Assembly: GCA_011033025.1 (NCBI GenBank)
Contig: WFMF01000169.1
Coordinates: 186,001-250,000, forward strand
Length of the DNA: 64,000 nucleotides
Direction of reading: 5' to 3'
DNA from: Beroe forskalii
Taxonomy: Eukaryota; Ctenophora; Nuda; Beroida; Beroidae
Shown here: in pieces, positions 45,846-63,584 of the stretch
Layout of the letters: each line of letters starts with the position of its first letter
How positions within the stretch are numbered: the first letter of the stretch is position 1
The notes under the pieces: generated by a model
Told to the model about the DNA's origin: nothing
Seen by the model: only the letters and a program-made list of their open reading frames with translations
Databases searched by the model: none
Made by a program: the position numbers and the translations under genes

Positions 45846-47003
45846 TCACTCATAGCAGTCTTGTCCATAATAAGCAGTTTCCGTGACATCCATAGCCTCG
45901 TGCTTCACAGCAGGGGTCACATTCCTTCCTCCCCGGAAGGAGCCTCTAGAACCCTCCCTGCTGTAACCTCCTCGTCCACCCCTCCCAGCCATGCCTCGTG
46001 ATTGAGGGAATGCTCGACCACGAGGCCTCCGACTAGCTCGTGGGGGCACGTACTCATAGTAATTATACGGGTCCTCATACCCTTCATAGTCCTCATATCC
46101 GTACTCTCCGTACCCGTATCCCTCGTACTCGTACACTTCCTCGTAGCCATACCCTGCTGTGTCATACCCTGGGGGTACTCCCCCTTTCATGCCCCTCAGA
46201 GCTTTGTACGGAGTGGGCTGAGCCACGCCACTCCGCAACGCCTCCTGGTACCACTCCGTGTCTATGTAGCTGCCTGTGTCTCCGTACTCCCCGTGCTCAA
46301 AGTAGATGGGGTCGTACATGATGATGGGGGATCTGCCCTTGATGTCTGCAATGGAGTCGAACACCCTCACTGCTGTCCTGATCAGATCCGACTGCTCAAA
46401 GTTCTGAATCCTAACGCAGTACTCCTCAGAGAGGGGCAATGGCAAGGTGTACACCTGAATGTAAGACTTGGTTTCCTCCTTCATCTTCTTGATGAGAGAT
46501 CCTCCCTTGCCAATGATGCCACTACAGCAGTGAGACGGCACGATGAGTCTCAGTTCTAGTTTCTGAGTGGAGGAGCCTCCCCTCACTCCCCTCCTCCCAC
46601 CACGGCCTCCCCGGTGGATCTGGATGGAGGGAACCAGGTGCTGGAGGGCTAACTCCAGACCCTCAATCGTGGTCTGTACGCTCATCACTCTGTCCTGGGC
46701 ACCTTCCATCAGAGAAACCCCATTCGCTCCCTGAGCGTAGATAGACACTTTAGTATCAATACCTTGCTCCTTGGCTTCATCCTTGATGAGTTTAATGTGC
46801 TCCCCGCCTCTACCGATAATGCTTTTCACTAGATCTGCTCTGACAAGAAACCTATACACATCGTCCATAATCTTTCTTTTCTTGGAAAAGCCATCGATAC
46901 CAGAAAACTCATCGTAATCGTAGGACTCAATCGGGCGCTTTTGACCAAACACATTGCCTCGAGAAGCACCTCGACCTCGGCCACGAGTCCGGGACTCCGC
47001 CAT
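45846..47003 (-). CDS. Intronless hnRNP K-like protein with two KH domains
   Basis: One uninterrupted 385-codon frame from ATG 47003. An N-terminal RGRGRG stretch precedes a KKRK basic cluster (41-44). KH1 has GRGG at 64-67 and KH2 has GKGG at 165-168, the GxxG loops that hold single-stranded RNA or DNA. After KH2 comes KGRSPIIMYDPIYFEHGEYG, which parallels the KGRAQPYDP segment after KH2 of vertebrate hnRNP K. A Tyr/Gly-rich stretch and an RGG tail follow. There is no third KH domain, unlike the nine-exon gene at 50249-56893 on the same strand. A 5' UTR intron is possible (ttag just upstream of the ATG). Likely a nucleic-acid-binding hnRNP arising from retroduplication and tandem duplication; function beyond RNA binding is unknown. 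Confidence 0.9.
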   Translation of the reverse strand: MAESRTRGRGRGASRGNVFGQKRPIESYDYDEFSGIDGFSKKRKIMDDVYRFLVRADLVKSIIGRGGEHIKLIKDEAKEQGIDTKVSIYAQGANGVSLMEGAQDRVMSVQTTIEGLELALQHLVPSIQIHRGGRGGRRGVRGGSSTQKLELRLIVPSHCCSGIIGKGGSLIKKMKEETKSYIQVYTLPLPLSEEYCVRIQNFEQSDLIRTAVRVFDSIADIKGRSPIIMYDPIYFEHGEYGDTGSYIDTEWYQEALRSGVAQPTPYKALRGMKGGVPPGYDTAGYGYEEVYEYEGYGYGEYGYEDYEGYEDPYNYYEYVPPRASRRPRGRAFPQSRGMAGRGGRGGYSREGSRGSFRGGRNVTPAVKHEAMDVTETAYYGQDCYE

Positions 47004-47743
47004 GGTGAGCTAACAATAAACAATAGAAGTGAGACTTTACATTACTAGTTGACTGAGTAACATGTCACATGTATTACTACACTACACTACCGAGTCCTCT
47101 AACATGAAATATGTAACTACGTATCGTCAATTTTGCCTATAATCAGCATTGCTTCATCCACTCTAAAAAATAGGGGGATGAACATGTTTGGCCTGAAAGT
47201 GAAATGTAGGCCTAAGTGGGGTGGACTAAAAACAAGGATTCTGGGGGAAGCTGTAAAATGCAGATGGCGGATTTTTGAAAATCCAGGGGGGAGTTTCAGT
47301 TTTCGAAAGGAGAACTTGAAAAATTCAGGGGTTTTAACCCATGATGAAGCTAAACAACCACCATCCATTACGGCATCGTGGTTTTAAAATTAAAATCTCG
47401 GACATCTAATTCAGTTAAATTTATAGTTGAACGCATCCATAAGTTCTATATTTCACGAAATTTAAATCAAACTCAATTTTCATAAAAATAAAAAGATTTC
47501 AGTACCTATTGCATATTTTCAGTATTGCATTTATTTTAGTACGACAACGGATGGCAATACATAATGAAATTCGAGACTTAAATGTAAAGTATACATGAAA
47601 ATTGAAGATTACAAAACTTATTCGCTTAAATGCACCGCCTTAGCTCGAAATAAGTCAGATACCACATGAAAGTTTGATAAATCAGGAATGACGAATCATT
47701 GTTCAAAATTGATATAGCTTGCCAGCTTGGAGCACGGTAAAAT
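47004..47743. other. Intergenic region between the two intronless paralogues
   Basis: No gene. A minus-strand AATAAA at 47530-47535 could serve the gene at 47744-49033. The open frames on both strands around 47120-47390 match nothing I know. Confidence 0.4.
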
Positions 47744-49033
47744 TTAAGAAAAGGCCAGCATGGTTTGTAAGAAATAAGAAAATAAAAGCCAGATCAATGA
47801 ACTCGAGCCGAAAGTAGTCCTTCCGTTACTCGGTTCGGATGTCAGCAGTTCACTCTGCGGCCTCATCAGCAGCATGAGACGGGCCTCCCCTGCCTCTGCC
47901 ATAGCCCCCGCGAGGGGCGCCCCTGGCACGAGGGGCGAGTGGTCTGTGAGGGGCGCCCCTCTGCCGCCCCGGGCCCCAGCACCTCTAGGACCCCGAGCTC
48001 TGAAGGGAGCGCCGCGCGGCGCAGCACGGCGCGGGGCCCCCATGCCACGAGGAGCGGCGCGAGGCCTGGGCGGCGGGTAGTACCACTCCTCGTACTCCTC
48101 CGCCTCCTCGTAGCCGTAGCCGCCGTAATCCTCGTAGCCGCCTTCCTCGTAGCCTGCGTAGGGGTCCTCGGCGGCTGCGTAGCCACCTTCAGATGCAGCA
48201 GACCTGATCTGCTTGAAGGGAGTGGGTTTAGCCACGCCACTCCGCAACGCCTCCTGGTACCACTCCGTGTCTATGTAGCTGCCTGTGTCTCCGTACTCCC
48301 CGTGCTCAAAGTAGATGGGGTCGTACATTGTGACGGGGCTTTTTCCTTTGATTTCCGCAATGGACTGGAATACTTTTACTGCTGTCACTACAAGTTCATC
48401 GGCTTCAAAGTTCTGAATTCTGATGCAATGTTCGTCTGAGTTAGGTAGAGGAAGAGTGTAAACTTGGATATAAGAGTTCGTTTCCTGCTTCATTTTCTTG
48501 ACGATGCACCCACCTTTGCCAATGATACCACTACAGCAATGAGCAGGAACCATTAACCTCAGCTCCAACTTGACGCGTCTCTGTTCGCCAGATGGGGCGC
48601 CGCCCCGTCCTCGGCCTCTGCCGCCAGGTTGGAACTGCCGGTGAGTCTGGACGTGGGGGACAATGTGGTTGAGAGCCATGGCCAGACCATCCTCGGTAGA
48701 CTGTATACTCATCACCCTGTCCACTGCTCCATCCATCATGGGCCCGCCGTTAGAGTTCTGTGCGTAGATGGAGACTTTGGTCTCAATGCCGGCCTCTTTG
48801 GCCTCATCCTTGATCTCCCTGATGTTGTCTCCTCCTTTTCCAATGACAACTCTCACGAGGTCCTCCCGAACAAGGAAGCGATACACATCGTCCATGATCT
48901 TCCGTTTCTTTGAGTACCCGTCAGAGTAGTCTTCGTAATCATGGGCCTCGTACATCGGCCGCTTCATCCCACCTCGGCCTCGACCTCGGCCCCACGAACC
49001 ACGTCCGCGTCCTCTCGGCTCTGCTTCGGCCAT
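47744..49033 (-). CDS. Second intronless hnRNP K-like protein with two KH domains
   Basis: ATG at 49033 opens with MAEAEPRGRGRG, parallel to the neighbour's MAESRTRGRGRG. It has KKRKIMDDVYRFLV, KH1 with GKGG, KH2 with VPAHCCSGIIGKGG, then the same YDPIYFEHGEYGDTG block, a Tyr/Glu-rich stretch and an Ala/Pro/Arg/Gly-rich tail. In the frame as given, the last ~77 residues lose the RG pattern and end in a hydrophobic LIWLLFSYFLQTM. The alternative frame keeps RGGYGRGRGG and stops at 47850 with an acidic AADEAAE end. A missing base in a GGGG run around 47950 is therefore likely, and the natural stop is probably 47850. A 98-bp block is identical to the sister gene at the nucleotide level. Confidence 0.88.
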   Translation of the reverse strand: MAEAEPRGRGRGSWGRGRGRGGMKRPMYEAHDYEDYSDGYSKKRKIMDDVYRFLVREDLVRVVIGKGGDNIREIKDEAKEAGIETKVSIYAQNSNGGPMMDGAVDRVMSIQSTEDGLAMALNHIVPHVQTHRQFQPGGRGRGRGGAPSGEQRRVKLELRLMVPAHCCSGIIGKGGCIVKKMKQETNSYIQVYTLPLPNSDEHCIRIQNFEADELVVTAVKVFQSIAEIKGKSPVTMYDPIYFEHGEYGDTGSYIDTEWYQEALRSGVAKPTPFKQIRSAASEGGYAAAEDPYAGYEEGGYEDYGGYGYEEAEEYEEWYYPPPRPRAAPRGMGAPRRAAPRGAPFRARGPRGAGARGGRGAPLTDHSPLVPGAPLAGAMAEAGEARLMLLMRPQSELLTSEPSNGRTTFGSSSLIWLLFSYFLQTMLAFS

Positions 49034-50248
49034 GCTGTTCAATGCTCAAATTTCGTGGGAATTAAAGATTCGCAATATTTTTTTCAAATAAGTTTCAAGT
49101 TTAGGAAATGCATTTAGAAAATTGTCATTGAAATTGTCATTGAAATTTGAAACATATTTGATTAAATTTCGCAACTGGACAAAACTTTGGATACGAAATA
49201 TTATTTTCCATTAAAATTCCATTATTTCCGCGTCAAAATATGAAACCTTCAGAAGAAAACAATACATTGATAAATACCAATTTCATTATTTTAAAAATTC
49301 AAAACTCAGCAAATTCTAACATTTCACGCGGGAAGGAGACTGGTTTTGACCTCACCACAGATAAAATAAGATCAGCACGCTGCACACTAAACATTGTTCT
49401 AACTTTAGAACATTTTGGTTGGTCTAGACGCTAACAAATAAATTTCCCCATGATTTCTTTAAAGAGTTTTGACAGGTCGAGTTTCGAGCATTCGAGAAGA
49501 TTCAGGAGTCCTAGTTCTGATTAAGATTCTGAAATTCAATTTGCAGCGGGAGCTGAACTCGAGAAAATTAGATGTATGGGTCTGCCAGATGGCGGAATTT
49601 GGCAGGAGAGTTTCGTAAGTCGGGCGCTCTAACACGATGAACATGACTGATGACAATATACCAACTACCTTAGGTAAAGGCATCAGAAGCCAACACATCA
49701 ACATCAGGTTAGATACCCTAAGTCCTAACATAACGAAACTCTTTGTCAGTTTCTACAACTGTTGACTCGCTTGTAAGTGTACGAATACAGTAAAGAATAG
49801 GATTATATTAGGATAAAGTGGAGTAACCAAACTGAGATAGTGTCACAGAAATTTCGCTCAAAAAGGGAGAAAGTCAGAGGTGAAGTGGATATAAGGTATC
49901 TCAGCAATCTGACTGAATCCACAAAACCAAAGATTACCGGTGTAACAGAAGAAAAAAAGATCTAAGTAATGTTTGGACAGTGAAAAATAACCAGAGCCAG
50001 ACGAGAAACGTCGCGTTTTACATATTCAAATAGTAAGCCTCAAGAACAACGGATTCTAGTGAGGCTTTCAGAACGAGACTCGGGGATGTCAAAAGATATT
50101 AAATCGGATTTGATGACTAATAAACAATAAGTTCTTTAGATGAATTATCGAATATTATTGGCAAGATAAAATTATGATTAAAAGGCTTCAAATAAGCTGA
50201 ATTCGATATCCACCCACCAGAGGTTTCAGGGGTGAGGGAAGGGTTTTT
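49034..50248. other. Region between the paralogue pair and the three-KH gene
   Basis: AT-rich, no supported gene. It should hold the promoter of the 47744-49033 gene and the 3' UTR of the three-KH gene. Confidence 0.45.
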
Positions 50249-53200
50249 CTAGGAGTTCCATGACTGTTCAGGTCTCAGTTTCTTGCGAGGGGGGCCGTCT
50301 TTAGGAGGCGGGTATTGGGGTCTCCCGGAGAAACTTTGGACGCAACACTGCAACATGTACTCGGCTAGGTGGCACTGAATGTTGGTTCCCTCTATAGTTA
50401 TCAGCCTCTCTCCTTCACCGGCAGAGTCAAACTCACCTGCGTTAGATGCATCTTATTATTACGCCAAGAATTAGGTACTTTGGTATTATTCTAACAAGTT
50501 CTTGTTTACACTTTCCAGATAAATCAATGAATAGTTAGTGTAGTGTTCCATGCCCGGTTTTTGACAACTGTGCAAAAACCGAGAAAAACTTATCGGATGA
50601 AATCAAGGTTTTCTCAAAAAACTATGATTTTTCCTATTTCATCCAATGGCAAAAAGCTCCTTGTTGGCTAAAATCGAGATTGCAGGAAGTACTTGAACTG
50701 AGCCCTAGAAATTCAATTAACGCAATCCGTAGGTGGTTATTATCATGTACATAGCAGATAAACATTACATTACAGCGCACATCTCCTCTCAACTTTCAAA
50801 GAACAAAAAACAAACATAGATTATGGTAAATTGGTCAATGAATTTTAAAGCCTGAAACACAATCTAGGTACTGATCTGAAGTTTTCAACTCCATTGATAG
50901 CCGTACACTTGTTAGATTCATAACTAGACAACAGTTTCCTTTCAGCTTACAAACAAATGGTGAGTTAGATGATTTTAGTTGGTATGGCTAGGCTATTGAA
51001 ACTTTACTTCGATCTCTCAACTTCTATGAGTCCAAAATTCTAGATATATTTTTCTAGATAATTTTCCCGTTTCCGACATAATTTTCAAATTCTATCGGCT
51101 AGCACATCACATACATACCAGGTCATCGGCGATTGGTCATGGTACCAGACTGGTGTCAGTGATACCAACGTCAGCCAGACTGGTGTCAGTGATACGTAAC
51201 GTCAAAGCTGACTGTGCCAGATACGTAACGTCAATGTAACGTCAATGTACAGACTGGTGTCAGATACGTCAGTGTGCCAGACTGGTGTCAGTAATACGTA
51301 ACGTCATTGTCCCCCTCCTGGTGTCATGTTACTTTGGTCAGTGTCAACCCCTGGTGTCAGTGATACGTAACGTCAATGTGCCAGACTGGTGTCAACATAA
51401 ACGTCAGACTGTGCCAACTGGTAGTCATGTCAGTGATACGTAACGTCAGTGTGCTAGCCTGGTGTCAGTGATACGTAACGTCAATGTACAGACTGGTGTC
51501 AGTGATACGTAACGTCAGTGTGCCAATTGGTGTCAGTGATACGTAACGTGTTACCTTCTTTGGTGTCAGTGATACGTAACGTCATTGTGCCAGACTGGTG
51601 TCAGTGATACGTGACGTCAGTGTGCCAGCCTGGTGTCAGTGATACGTAACGTCAATACCAGAAAGTGGTGTCAGTTCTATGTAACGTCAATATTGCCAGA
51701 CTGGTGTCAGTGATACGTAACGTCAATGTGCCAGACTGTTGTCAGTGATACGTAACGTCAGTGTGCCAGACTGGTGTCAGTGATACGTAACGTCAGTGTG
51801 CTAGCCTGTCAGTGATACGTAACGTCAATGTGCCAGACTGTTGTCAGTGATACGTAACGTCAGTGTGCCAGACTGGTGTCAGTGATTCTAATACACTTAA
51901 TACTTTAATAAAACATCGAAATGTGTTCGCTGCGTCGCAATGGTTTAAGTCATCAGTGAAGCGTCAGAATGGTTTCAGAGAGTCAGAGAGTTACAGATAT
52001 GCTATAATTGATTTTGTCAACTCTAGCTTTCTGACAGTCTTTTCATGTCCCAAGAAGTGAGTCTGTAAATAGGTTGCGCTTATTTGCAGTGTCCTGCACC
52101 CAGAATCACCTGTACACATTACACAAACTACACAGATATTAATTGTTACACACATTTACACTCTTGCATGACAATAATTCAATTTCAAATTGGCTGATTC
52201 GGAATTTCGTTGCATGGAACAACCCAAGCTTTTTCCGGGTTTTCAAAAGGCGGAATTCCGCGCGGATTTTCGAGTCGGTTTTCCGGGCGTGGAACACTAC
52301 ACTTATAATCGTAATAGTTGTCCACCGAGACAAAGAAATTGGGACAAAACTTATTATTGAATCAAGGCGTTCTCAGAACTATGATCTAAAACTACAATCC
52401 ACTGGCATACCGATCTTGATGTTGGCTCCAGACGACTGTCTGACGTCTCTGATTCTGGAGCCCTTGTCCCCGATGATGCAGCCCGTCAGGTGGTTCTCTA
52501 GCGTCACTTCCTTGACAGTGCGTGCCTCTCCGTCCGAACCAGCGTACGTAGTGAAGGGAAACTTAATGATGAACTTGGAGAGAAGACCTCCTATCTCGTC
52601 TTGGTCACTGCTCTGGTGAGTTAGACTCCAATACACGGTGCTATTGACAGTCAAGAAACTAAATATTCAAACTAACGTCTAACACTTGATGAAGTCATCA
52701 AATAAAATTGAGTGAAGCAGCGTTTCAACTAGTACACTTAATTGGCAGGAGGCGTTAGCCGAGTGCAAACGATACAACTACTGACATATGACCTGAAATC
52801 AAATGAATAACTATAGGGTAAAGCTACAGGTAACTCACCTCTGGTGATGTGGCGGCTGGTGATGGTAAGGCTGAGGGGGACCACCGTAACCATGGTGTTG
52901 TTGATGATGTTGCTGATGATGGTGTGGTGGCTGCTGGGAGTTGTAGGAATCTGATCCGTGCTTTCTAAAGGGCGGAGGATGCCCCATACCCCTCCCTCCA
53001 CCTCCCCCTCCTTGCATGTTTCTTTCGGGTCTTCTCAATCCTGAAGTGGCAAACACTAAACATAAATACACCAATAGGCTCAATTTATAATTTCTATGCA
53101 CTCTGAATTAGTGATCATCAGTCATTCGTTAATTAAGTATCCTGTTTCCAGTTTTTGATAAAGTTGGGTACAGAACTGCAGCCACTTTCCATAACCGTTT

Positions 53201-56200
53201 TCTTAACACTGACAATAACCCTTCTTTTTTTCCTTCTTTTTTCCCAAAAAATCCATTTTGGCCATCGACATCATGAGGAAACCCCCTGTGCTTTTACCGA
53301 TACACATATATACAGGAAAGTGGTAACAGTTCTGTGTACCTCAATATTATACCACAGTCCACACGAATAAAATTGTTCGTTCCGCACAGAAATATTTCGG
53401 GGTACCTGAATCGAAGCCGTCTACAGAGTCCTGGTAGCCTCCGACTCCAGCATCCCGGGGGACGGTGGCTCCGTCCGCAGGGTCGTATATCCTGCAGGGC
53501 AGGGTGTCCAGTTCCACGGTCGCTGAAACGGCACATTTGATATTCTTTCCTATTCTTGCGAGACATTTAAACCAAGGATTTTATTCAATTCAGTAGGGGT
53601 GCGATACCGTTGGGATATCCAGGGGTGTCGTAGATCCTAGAGGTAGCGAATGGGGGTTGGGGCAATTATAAGTCAAATATTTCGTTATTAGATCTGATCG
53701 TGGAAGGATCTAGTCAGTAAGATCTACATCACTGCAAGACTTACAGTAGATTTCTGAGATAGCGCTGATGATCTTATCCACCTCTCCCTTGATAAGCAGG
53801 ACTCTCTCATCCGAGCACTGTAACTTGTTGGGGAAGGCCTTGAGGGAGGCGCCCGACTTCTCCCGAATTCCGTTGATACTCTTGCCACCCTTTCCGATGA
53901 TGCTTCCCATGTTTGTACTGGAAAACAGACAACACATCTCGGGCTCATTGACGTTAGCAAACCCATTCTTTGACAATCCCTGCGGATTTAAATAACACTA
54001 TATCACGAGGCGGTATGACGTGGGTCATTGGTAGAAAATAGCTATAAATTGCAAAGAATATTGGAATGTAACATTTCAAAACAATCCAATAAGGTTGGTT
54101 GACAAAATTGAGCACCGGAACCGTGAGATTTTGTCTGTCAATCAATAGCTACTCTAATTTTTCACTCTTTTCTGCGGGCACCCACGTGGTATTCACGTGG
54201 TTACTCGCGGAAAAGAGTCAAGAATTATCTTAGTAATTGCAATCATTCCATTACATTCATTCCTTATAACGGCCACTACGCATCTAGAAGAGCGTTGCAT
54301 GTATCACCAATTGATCAATTGATCAATTAGGTATGGTCATAGGCTCATTATCACTGACCCGTGGTTATAACAAGGGTGTGATAATTACTGATATATCACT
54401 CCTTTAAAACTGACATGAATAGTCAATATATAACTCACATCAAAGATTTGTGGGATGAGCTGGGAGAAGATGGCGTATATTTCCGAAGGGTCACACTCCA
54501 CGTGAATCACTCTGAAAATAGAAACTGTGAAACATACAGGTCATTTCAGAGTTAAAAGTTATTTCAGAGTTAAAAGTCATTTCAGCGTTGAAAGATATTT
54601 CAGAGTCAAAACATTTCAGAGTCAAGACATTTCAGAGTCAAGACATTGCAGAGTCAAGACACTTCAGTGTCAAGACATTGCAGAGTCAAGACATTGCAGA
54701 GTCAAGACATTGCTGAGTAATCAACTCTTTGGAAAGAAAAAATGGATCGGCGGCCGTGAGTAATATAAGCTTCATAGTAACACATTTCGAATCTGTTGCA
54801 TCATTGAGATACTAGATATTCATTCATTAAGATCATCATTTTCATCATTTTCTTATACATCCATCCATATATCCTCTATTAACAATATGATACGATTTAC
54901 TCAGACGTTTTCCTTAGGCACGAAAAGGGGTTTAAATCTGGAACGGTAATTATTAGATATTCATTCGCTGTAACCAAGCTAGAGGCGCAAATACACGTCA
55001 TTATATCATCATTTTATTAATCATTCATAGGTTATGGCCTCAATTAACTGTAACATTATTAAAAATTTTGAAAATGTACCAGGGTACCCAGCAAAAAATG
55101 TCCGCTTGAGCAATATTACAAAATGCCCCTAACAAGTAACGTATGTAAGGACGAAATCGGAAGCATAAGCCATAACTCATTATGTCTACAAAATTGAGAA
55201 CCAAAGCTTCATTACACATTATGGAAATATAGTTTTGATTGAAAATACCTACAATCAAGCTGAGTACCCTGCTTACTATTATCTACCGAGCACAATTAAC
55301 AGGCAATCAAGTGGAGTGTCACAATCATGGTTAAAGAAGGTATATTGATGACGTTCCACCGAGCCTGTTTTTCGTGCGCGGTCTACTGAAGAAAGTGGGA
55401 TGTGGGAGTTACCTTTCTTCGGCATGGGGGCACGTTGGGGTTTCCAAAACTTTGATTGTGGCCTTGCGGGAGGGATGGGGTTAGGGGATTGGTATTTGTG
55501 GGCACCTTGTTGTACATGGGACTCTTCAGCATGTAAAAATAAGAGTTGTTAGGAATAAAACTTTTGATAAATGACCACTCTCAGTATATTTGTGAATTGT
55601 TGTATCATAAGGGAAACCGTTTGTAAAAGGAATATAAGTCAAGCTATGGACGGCATGGCATTAAGGGCTAAGAAAAACCGCATCAAGGAAGATTTGGGAT
55701 TGACTGCGTACCAAGGGGTGGGGATTAGGGACTGGGGATTAAAAGGTGCTTGGACTAATTCAAATTCTTCCGCCATAAATAAACAACCATTCCGTGTGCT
55801 GCTAATTTATAATTACACTTTAATCACCTCAATTGTGAGATTAATTATTCACTTAATTAATCTTCTAATGTTGGAAGTTAATTTAGGATAAATAGCTCCA
55901 AATTGAGAGAATTGATGAGTGGTAGCACTGACCGATGAGCGATATATAATAAATCATACTACAAAAACTACGCACTTGTATGGCGTGCGTAGCTCATGCA
56001 GTATCAAGTTTTCTGACAGACACATTATGTTTATTGACGGCAAAATAGAATATAATCAACAGCAGTGATATCTATGGTACTCACCTCTGGACAAGAAGAT
56101 CGGATATTCTTGATGTTGTCTCCCCCTTTCCCAATAAGTCCGCCAACGACCTGCGATGGAAAATGAAATTAAAACTAAGAAAACTTATTGGGCCGGCCTT

Positions 56201-56893: not shown

Positions 56894-58869
56894 TGCCTAT
56901 GAAATATTCATTAATCATTGGGGGGCTGATTGCTACTTATATGGGTTATGAAACCATTTAACATCATTGTAAAATTCAGTCGAAGCAGATTTATCATCAA
57001 AGCAACGATCAAACTCGCTGCTAAAATGAAAAGCCCGAACATACCATGTTCATATTTGGCCAAGTTACAGGATCAAATCAACAACACCACGTAACTCAAC
57101 CGAGTACTTTGACATCGAATAGAGCTTCGATGGGATTGGCTAGAAGAAGCATATGGGCTGGCTTGAAAACAGCCGATGAATAGGTTCCTATCGGATGTAC
57201 ATCCCCCATCGCCACAATAGAACGATTTCGAACATGTTATTTTAGAGAAACTTCGCTCTCCTTTTAACGATGTCCACGGTTTTTTTTATACTATGGGAGC
57301 TGGAGGATTCACTGCCCCAAGCTGCCTGAATTTTATGAGACATCGTGACGCAGATTGAAACTGTTGGTTACGAAATTGCACATGAGCCGCGCAAACATAC
57401 TGCATACGACTTGTATTTTTGCACCAATATATTCGCAAAATTTGCTAGTACAAAAGCTCATTTGCGAAATTTGTCCCAATCTGGGAACCATGATGCGTAG
57501 CCAAGAAACAGCTGTCCAATCGTCCTCACGTGACCAAAAGTTCAATCCATCGATAGAAATTCTTGACTGATGGTGACCATTCCTCTCTGTTATGAGCTTA
57601 CTGACGTGATCACACTGTCCTTGCACCGAGCAACTATTACTGCAAAATATCACATTACAGATTAGGGGTATTAGGGGTATAAGGACTATAGCCCGTACAG
57701 TTTTTTACCTCAATAATTCGTTAACCGGTAGACACGGCCAATTCAAGTGGCAGTCATAATTTGCAAATTGTACAAGAAACTAAATCTCGTGCGTTTTGGT
57801 ACGTTTTTCAAACGCCCATAATTACTGTTTCACATATTATGATTGACAAAAGTTTGTAGGAAAATGAAGATGGGATTTTTCCAGAAACCATCCAAAATTT
57901 TTCGGAAAGTTTGAAATATTCCTTAATTAATTTTTTTTAAAATGCAAGCCCACCCAAAGATTTGATTGTGAAAAGGGCAACCAATCGCATGCCCGAGTGG
58001 CAATAAAAAGAATCGTTATTTGTACAGTGGGAGCAAAATGTATTCATCGTTTTCAAAAATCCGCCTTACACTGTAAATACTGTAAAATTGCTTCATTCAA
58101 ATGCTCGCTACTTTTGATTCAATGACCAATAATTCAAAAACCATACGTAAATTACGTGATCAATGATCATTTAATATTATACGTGAGGTTTCAAATACGA
58201 CAATTGGATGTTACAACAAGAGAGACGTATCATGGATAAAATACATGATAACACGATATAGGAGAAGTAAGGGATCGTTCACTTATTAGTTATAACGTAA
58301 CCAATTTTTTGGGCATTTTCCTCCCCCCCCCCCTCCTCCGTAATCAAAAGTAATGGCGGCCATACCGCCCCCCCCCCTATTTTGGAAAATATTACGTTAT
58401 CATGGCCCGACCCCCCTCCCTTCAGAAAGAAAATTCTTCACTTTCGCATGTCATATTTGATAATCATTATCATAAATGTAAAGTGAATAACGATCGCTGT
58501 TTTTTCATAGGCTAGCATGGAAATATTATTAGAACTATTAAATGGTGAGAAATTGCCATTTTTACAAGTTTAGCCCATTTTATGAACAAACATCGTATAT
58601 AATTCGTCCACGCAAAAATCTTGAACATATGACTTATCCTATAAAAACTACATTTTGCCCCGAATTCATGAAAATAGTAGGGTGCAACTTTCGTTTACAT
58701 CAGTTTTTTCGAAATTTGAAAAAATGGTGTTTTGGATGTTATGAAATTTTGTCTATTTTTCTGAAAACCGACACTTTTTCGGTGTTCTAAATCCTTCAAA
58801 ATGTATATGAAAATTTAGATATTCTAGGTATTCTGATTACGTAATGAAACACTAACTTCGAATCAAACA
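56894..58869. other. Upstream region of the hnRNP K gene
   Basis: No supported gene. From about 58270 to 58420 there is a C-run-rich fragment with GGGATCGTTCACTTATTAG and ATTACGTTAT, which looks like an old DNA-transposon piece. Confidence 0.45.
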
Positions 58870-61139: not shown

Positions 61140-63020
61140 CCCCCCCCGAATTTTAAACCCTGACCTTTTACCACCCTAGGGGGTAGTGTCACTGTCCCAA
61201 TTGTCCCTGTCCCAATTTACAGGGACAATTAGGACAACTGGGACAATTGGGACAAACTAAAAATTGAAAAAATCAGTCATTCATCATTTTTTACATTGAT
61301 CCAAGTTTTTCTATCATTTAAATGAAAGTTATATTCACACTACAGTAGAGAGTACATATTTTGGTTGTGTTTGTTTGCAGTGGTGAAGTATTCCCACTTC
61401 CCTATCCCAAAACATATGATAGGAAAAAGATAGTGGCAATTGCAACGCAGCAAGTGCTGCTATGTAACAGGGTGTGAGACAAAAACACTAAGCTACCGCT
61501 CAAAAACATCATCATTTGAGCCCCATTTGCCTCTGTCACTTTTGTCCCAAATGTCCCATTTGGCCCAATTGTCCCATTTGTCCCAGTCGGCATTCACTTT
61601 TTTCAGTCGCATTTTTTCCATTTTCTCTGTCCCATTTGTCCCAAATGTCCCAATTGTCCCAGTACACATTTACTTTTTAGAGTTCCATTTGTTCTATTTT
61701 CTCTGTCTTGTTTGTCCAAATTGTTCCATTTGTCCCAATCCACTTTTTCTTGAGTTTGGGACAATTGGAAGTTTCACTGTCCCAATTGTCCCTGTCCCAA
61801 TTTACTTTTTTTGAGTTTGGGACTGGTTTTTGGGACATTTGGGACAAACAAAAAGTTGAAAAATCAGTCATTTATCATTTTTACATTGATTCAAGATTTT
61901 CTATCATTGAAATGAATGTTATATTCACATAGTATACTAAGTACATATTTTGTTTGCAGCTGTTAAGTGTTCCCACTTCCCTATCCCAAAACCTATGATG
62001 GAAAAAGACCATGTAAAAAGAATGATTTAGTAAAAAGAATGATTTTTATTCATCTCCACAATATACAATTCAAAACACACACACACAAAATACAAATGAG
62101 GTCTTGCTGTTAGGATAATTATTTCTGCAAGCCTAGAATAAGTCAAAGTAAGCTTGAAAGGTACTTATTTAACTATTTAAATACAAGCTCTATAATAGAA
62201 TGTCTTGGGTATAACAAGTTAAATGAAGGAATTTGTGGGGCAATCTGTTAAATTGATGCGTTTTTACTTATTAATTATCAATGAATACAGTATTTCTATA
62301 AAAATTAGATATTTTACTTGCATTCTTCATGGTCGAGCTTAGATACAATTTGATGATATCTAAATTTGAAAATAATCCTAACATGTCCACATTTGTAGAA
62401 CCCATGTCTCTGGGTTAGAAAAGCAAACTAGACAGTTAATAAATGGTATAGGGCACTCTTATACCAATGTGCAGTGTGGGTGTGTGTGTTATACATTCAC
62501 AGTTGAAACACAGAAAGTGCTGCTAATTGCTATGTAACAGGCTCTGAGACAAAAACCACTAAACTGCCGCCTAAAAACACAATCATTTGAATCCCAGTTG
62601 TCTCTGTCATTTCCGTCCCAATTGTCCCAAATGTCCCAATTGTCCCAGTCTGCATTTACTTTTTTGAGTTCCATTTGTTCTATTTTCTCTGTCTTATTTG
62701 TCCCAATTGTTCCATTTGTCCCAATCCACTTTTTCTTGAGTTCGGGACAATTGGAAGTTTCACTGTCCCAATTGTCCCTGTCCCAATTTACTTTTTTTGA
62801 GTTTGGGACTGGTTTTTGGGACAATTTGGACATTTGTTCCATTTTCTCTGTACCATTTGTCCCAATTGTCCCAATGTCCCAATTGTCCCAGTCTGCATTC
62901 ACTTTTTTGAGTCCCATTTGTTCTCAATTGTCCCAGTCTACATTCACTTTTTTGAGTCCCATTTGTTCTCAGTCCCATTTGTCCAAAATATCCCATTTGT
63001 CCCTGTCCCAATCCACGTTT
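61140..63020. repeat. TGTCCCAAT-rich simple repeat with duplicated segments
   Basis: Long stretches of TGTCCCAATTGTCCCATT in both orientations. Unique pieces are duplicated: 61255-61440 resembles 61850-61995 (ATCAGTCATT...TTCCCACTTCCCTATCCCAA), and 61440-61560 resembles 62510-62630 (GTGCTGCTA...TATGTAACAG). Encoded NWDNWD-type frames are not genes. Confidence 0.88.
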
Positions 63021-63584
63021 TCTTGAGTTAGGGACAATTCTTCAGGATCTTTATAGGATCTCAAAGGCTGAGGAATGCCTCTTAAGAAAGTTACCGCTTA
63101 GTTGCCTAGAGAATTAAGTTTCTTAATTATGGTTTTAAGCGGGTTATAAATGTGTGCTTTATTATTATTATTATTATTAATTGGGACAGTGAAAACCCCA
63201 CCAATGCAAGTTTAAGGGTGACACTTATTAACATGAGCTTGGCTACCCCTCAGTTACTAAGGGTCACACTAAAAAAGCTGATTGGTTCATATGAATCGAT
63301 ATTTTAAGGGTGAGCTGATTTAGGCACAGTTAAGGATGAACTTATAATTGTATTATATGGCCCTAAATTTAGTTCAGTTAAACAGAAAATTTCTTCAAAT
63401 TCACCTTTTTGGAGTTAAATTAATCATCAAAACATGATTTAAGTAGTATATTTATGCAAAATAGTGAAAATCAGGGCTATGAAGAAAGGAAAATTTGCCT
63501 ATGTAAATTTGGACCCCCACCCTAGTTTTCATATGGCCTATGACAAATCTAGGGGGCCTTGGCCCCCACTAGCTTGAACAAGTG
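63021..63584. other. Non-coding spacer with an ATT microsatellite
   Basis: ATT repeats near 63160-63180. The 63400-63560 part loosely resembles 24900-25230. Confidence 0.45.

Follow-up and report, generated by a model that had tools for sequence, protein, structure and literature searches.

Gene conversion is a well-known process, and the tandem genes A and B of Beroe forskalii described here can be set beside a few documented cases of it. According to the excerpted portion of PMC3924818, conversion has been reported mainly above 80% identity; the mean tract length estimated by likelihood was about 100 bp throughout one group of data sets with a single exception, and many direct experiments gave tracts of 200-300 bp. 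The fog-2 and ftr-1 genes of C. elegans, as presented in the extracts of PMC3966223, lie in tandem and in the same orientation 763 bp apart; their longest tracts measure 102 and 93 bp, and in experimental lines a stretch of 77% identity was converted. They resemble A and B in tandem arrangement, orientation, spacer length (763 versus 740 bp) and short tracts, but are less diverged overall (KS 28%, 82% identity) than A and B, whose silent sites are saturated outside the identical block, and unconverted alleles are known for fog-2/ftr-1 whereas A and B are known from one assembly (PMC3966223). A low starting identity is therefore possible, though in fog-2/ftr-1 conversion began beside approximately 70 bp of perfect identity, and that 70-72 bp identical stretch probably helped to start the event, as stated in the same extracts (PMC3966223). 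The GOT1 paralogues of the copepod Tigriopus californicus, in the available part of PMC3728101, share with A and B a patchwork of identical and diverged sequence and GENECONV calls, but come from four populations with several predicted tracts, as against one tract in one assembly. In mtrA-1/mtrA-2 of methanogens a conserved domain is, as in A and B, homogeneous between otherwise different paralogues; that case is however archaeal, involves a whole domain and was repeated over very long time according to the sections of PMC4632066 at hand, whereas in A and B only about 100 bp are involved and the identity is absent from a sister pair on contig C466.

The window, by which is meant the whole stretch of 64,000 nucleotides analysed, holds gene A (45846..47003, 385 aa) and gene B (47744..49033, 429 aa) as uninterrupted open reading frames on the minus strand, defined by reading frame, KH search and alignment and lying in tandem, in the same orientation, with 740 bp between them. 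Both are laid out as an RG-rich N-terminus, two KH stretches, a conserved segment after KH2 and a Tyr-rich and RG-rich tail, and the RG-rich tail of B appears to leave frame near the C-terminus. Positions 46221-46319 in A and 48230-48328 in B, both on the minus strand, are identical base for base over 99 bp, which correspond to 33 whole codons from ATG to GCT, MYDPIYFEHGEYGDTGSYIDTEWYQEALRSGVA. A preliminary description had reported 98 bp of identity (46222-46319 and 48231-48328); the identity is real and gains one base on the low side. Its statement that both edges are sharp holds for the adjoining base, which is a mismatch on either side, but the 3′ coding edge is slightly less clean than was claimed, since a Q/K codon with two mismatches is followed there by 8 matching bases, CCCACTCC, in the A-B alignment. 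The block and its nearest flank are spanned by a repeat of 174 nt at 89% identity, an additional A-B repeat stretch covers 161 nt at 74% identity, and the spacing stays constant at 2009 bases, without indel, from the block into the matched stretch beside it.

By the NG86 method no synonymous difference between A and B was found over the 19.0 synonymous sites inside the block, as against 178.7 differences over 237.7 sites outside it, where silent sites are saturated. When only codons with the same residue in both genes were compared, M and W left out, 31/31 were identical inside and 80/182 outside the block (Fisher p 1.6e-10). This codon-by-codon comparison, proposed earlier as a check, bears out the claim that synonymous sites are identical in the block while flanking third positions differ, and similar identity across the entire genes, named in advance as an outcome contrary to that claim, is absent.

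A homologous locus was found on contig C466 of the same assembly (216 Mb, 1134 contigs). It carries two tandem open reading frames homologous to the block-bearing genes, A2 (C466:131844-130606) and B2 (C466:133875-132475), followed by stretches matching the KH-containing exons that also accompany A and B in the window. Silent sites of the two-KH genes are saturated between the window copy and the C466 copy. A family search of the assembly with a 50-residue query gave 6 matches, of which A, B, A2 and B2 are strong, with E values of 7e-24 or lower, and the other 2, at E 0.19 and 0.29, are weak; no relative outside the assembly was confirmed among 60 viral_contigs and 34 genome_contigs pattern matches (one scan each). 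The assembly contains two copies of a cluster of about 8-10 kb, made up of two uninterrupted two-KH genes and the exons of a PCBP/hnRNP K-like gene with three KH domains; one copy lies at 45846-56168 and the other at C466:130606-138907, and some KH exons seem to occur twice within the C466 copy, at 135.8-136.4 kb and 138.1-138.9 kb. With 720 window peptides of at least 40 residues compared to all of C466 (E up to 1e-6), the remaining matches were few and local, near 1.7, 39-42, 58.8-60.1 and 61-63 kb of the window; the stretch 61177-63039 is rich in repeats and matches C466:140.4-144.1 kb many times over, in either orientation and at about 69-100% identity. The C466 copy may stem from an old duplication, of a segment or of the genome, or from a second genome within the assembly, and the argument on the block holds in each case. 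The R/G/P-rich tails of B (approximately 47744-47965) and B2 (approximately C466:132475-132700) both appear to continue in another frame after an apparent shift by one base, ending at their own stop in that frame; this may reflect assembly indel errors, a small intron or genuine frameshifts in the two genes.

Each of A and B contains two stretches matching Pfam KH_1 (E up to 0.1), and no third KH domain was found in either by KH_1 at that threshold, so that both fall short of the three KH domains that make up the classical hnRNP K / PCBP layout. The best solved-structure relative was PCBP2, both for B (E 6.8e-12, 13 sequences listed) and for the four-gene profile (E 1.2e-13, 9 listed), and no hnRNP K chain was among the matches listed for either. 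The KH_1 and PCBP2 matches mark the KH domains of A and B as PCBP/hnRNP K-related, and on sequence grounds the label that suits the two genes best is that of PCBP/hnRNP K family relatives with two KH stretches. The earlier designation as hnRNP K paralogues is right about this kinship, but approximate for proteins with two KH stretches and PCBP2 as best solved relative. PCBP/hnRNP K-like exons neighbour the pair at 50249..56168 on the minus strand, recognised by KH matches and by matches to C466: the KH search gave 56034-56168, 53713-53997 and 52379-52666, and the comparison with C466 gave the common stretches 54388-54540, 53350-53580 and 50252-50452 (to the stop), all on the minus strand. The stretch 53350-53580 contains a YDP motif, in line with the motif at the corresponding place in hnRNP K, and an open reading frame at 52835-53107 lies within the exon region. 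We infer that these neighbouring exons form one three-KH gene. For the two of them that were searched, the best solved relatives were PCBP1 and PCBP2, with hnRNP K chains lower in both lists. Tandem minisatellite-like repeats, seen as repeated peptides in the translations, occupy approximately 51030-51850 between the last two exon matches of this gene.

The second locus allows the block to be viewed against homologues that took no part in its history. The protein of the block region is conserved, with 33 identical residues in three of the four genes and 30/33 in B2, yet the 33 residues of A2, identical to those of A and B, are encoded with 24/99 bases different. Bases equal to A and B number 75/99 in A2 and 72/99 in B2, and informative block codons are in common with A in 9/31 (A2) and 10/28 (B2) cases, so these uninvolved homologues lack the silent sites of the tract. 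Among the five pairs other than A-B, 72-78/99 bases of the block are identical and no exact run exceeds 14 bp, and none of these pairs shows an excess of identical codons there (Fisher p 0.46-0.92). Of the four genes found, only A and B share the identical nucleotides. A GENECONV-style permutation was performed on the alignment of A, B, A2 and B2 (342 gap-free codons, 580 polymorphic columns shuffled), and none of 20,000 permutations attained the A-B run of 33 columns, the longest run obtained being 17; the A-B run was likewise reached in 0/20,000 when the 147 silent polymorphic sites were shuffled. Together with the codon counts given above, this makes the tract longer than the flanking divergence predicts. 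With all columns, and in counts left uncorrected for the six pairs compared, a concordant B-B2 run of 9 columns was reached in 205/20,000 permutations and an A-A2 run of 10 columns in 743/20,000, and long runs of these two pairs were absent at the 147 silent sites. These somewhat long runs indicate that the permutation null is imperfect, but the A-B run is still far beyond it.

Tree tests gave different histories for the tract and its flanks. Within the block the grouping (A,B)(A2,B2) was preferred (AU p 0.028 for both alternatives), whereas outside it (A,A2)(B,B2) was best with DNA and with protein, the (A,B) grouping faring worse there without being firmly rejected (AU p 0.064 for DNA and 0.057 for protein); the conflict is clear on the inside and moderate on the outside. 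All 12/12 two-against-two informative bases in the block group A with B, other patterns being impossible once A equals B. Outside the block 34/117 informative bases do so, the three groupings being split 50, 34 and 33, and informative residues are divided among them as 11, 2 and 8. Residues just past the block are gene-specific, Q..Y in A and A2 and K..F in B and B2. From the best outside tree the tandem pair is probably older than the split of the window and C466 loci, a conclusion of moderate support. Whichever tree is correct, saturated flanks beside a block identical at silent sites call for copying between A and B.

A short interlocus (non-allelic) gene conversion, in which one of two tandem paralogues of equal orientation overwrote part of the other some 2 kb away, is in our view the highly probable source of the 99-bp identity. 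Conversion between the local genes had been put forward in the preliminary description and draws support from the saturated flanks, the permutation and the C466 pair without nucleotide conservation. The description had also offered a nucleotide-level constraint such as an RNA element or an autoregulatory binding site, to which an overlapping function can be added; any of these would hold the 99 bp identical. Such constraint would suit a segment strongly conserved as protein in genes whose products carry RNA-binding KH domains, but A2 with its same 33 residues should then share the constrained nucleotides, and its 24 differing bases contradict this; both A2 and B2 share the silent sites of A no more in the block than elsewhere in the genes. 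The structure check suggested for the RNA segment gave a block that folds slightly worse than its shuffles (z +1.36; 189/200 shuffles at least as stable), and no unusual folding was seen in it or in the homologous stretches of A2 and B2 (z +1.02 and −0.91). As neither nucleotide conservation beyond the protein nor stable structure was found for the block, an RNA element or autoregulatory site was dropped, and constraint in general has next to no probability. The sole Rfam match within the window at the gathering threshold lies away from the block: it is a borderline match to the C/D-box snoRNA SNORD36 at 56929-57005 on the minus strand, approximately 0.8 kb upstream of the KH1 exon match, with 30.3 bits against a cut-off of 30 and E 0.85.

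With the protein conserved in the C466 pair and the nucleotides not, copying between A and B remains. An error of assembly, gap filling or polishing could have placed the block of one gene in the other as well, 99 bp being close to one short-read length and the RG-rich tails of B and B2, which both appear to leave frame, perhaps holding indel errors. Both copies however lie in one contig 2 kb apart with no N in the window, mis-mapping needs near identity where the nearby flanks differ at about a quarter of bases and the upstream and downstream coding parts at 35-53%, and gene-specific residues are back within few codons on the 3′ side, which makes an artefact improbable. Replicative template switching, or conversion by reverse-transcribed mRNA of the other gene, is given slightly less chance again: the low prior identity hinders a classical homology search and a cDNA template would look alike in uninterrupted reading frames, but the patch is exactly in register, as ordinary conversion gives, and nothing observed requires another route. 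About as improbable as an artefact is a recurrent conversion hotspot in the segment after KH2; homogenisation would then have been repeated there even though the genes outside it, and perhaps the segment too before it was converted, had dropped below the level of identity usually regarded as necessary. Interlocus conversion is the simplest route, given two tandem genes of like orientation, a patch of about 100 bp in register and edges that lie at diverged sequence.

By such a conversion, a break or gap in one gene would have been repaired with the other gene as template across the conserved coding stretch after KH2, about 100 bp with all silent sites would have been copied, and copying would have halted where the flanks diverge. 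We infer this repair mechanism, as well as a single event and its age, from the aligned sequences. The event was earlier called recent, a dating only loosely supported by 0 changes over 19 synonymous sites, for which the 95% upper bound is approximately 0.15 changes per silent site since the event. Codon usage did not separate A from B as donor (log-likelihood −33.1 and −31.7). The three residues in the B2 block that are absent from A, A2 and B fit copying from A to B, and equally a change along B2. Third positions are G or C in 27/33 block codons versus 137/228 upstream in A and 136/235 upstream in B, which would fit a GC-biased copying step. What departs most from typical cases is the likely starting identity, which, judged from the unconverted pairs, was low at about 73-79%.

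The tract is ordinary though clean, an event of known kind that implies no new function. It adds a likely case of conversion between tandem genes saturated at silent sites, below the approximately 80% identity usually quoted. It illustrates cleanly how an ultraconserved coding element can be mimicked by a short conversion tract, and how comparison with a second copy of the locus, left unconverted, can decide between conversion and constraint.
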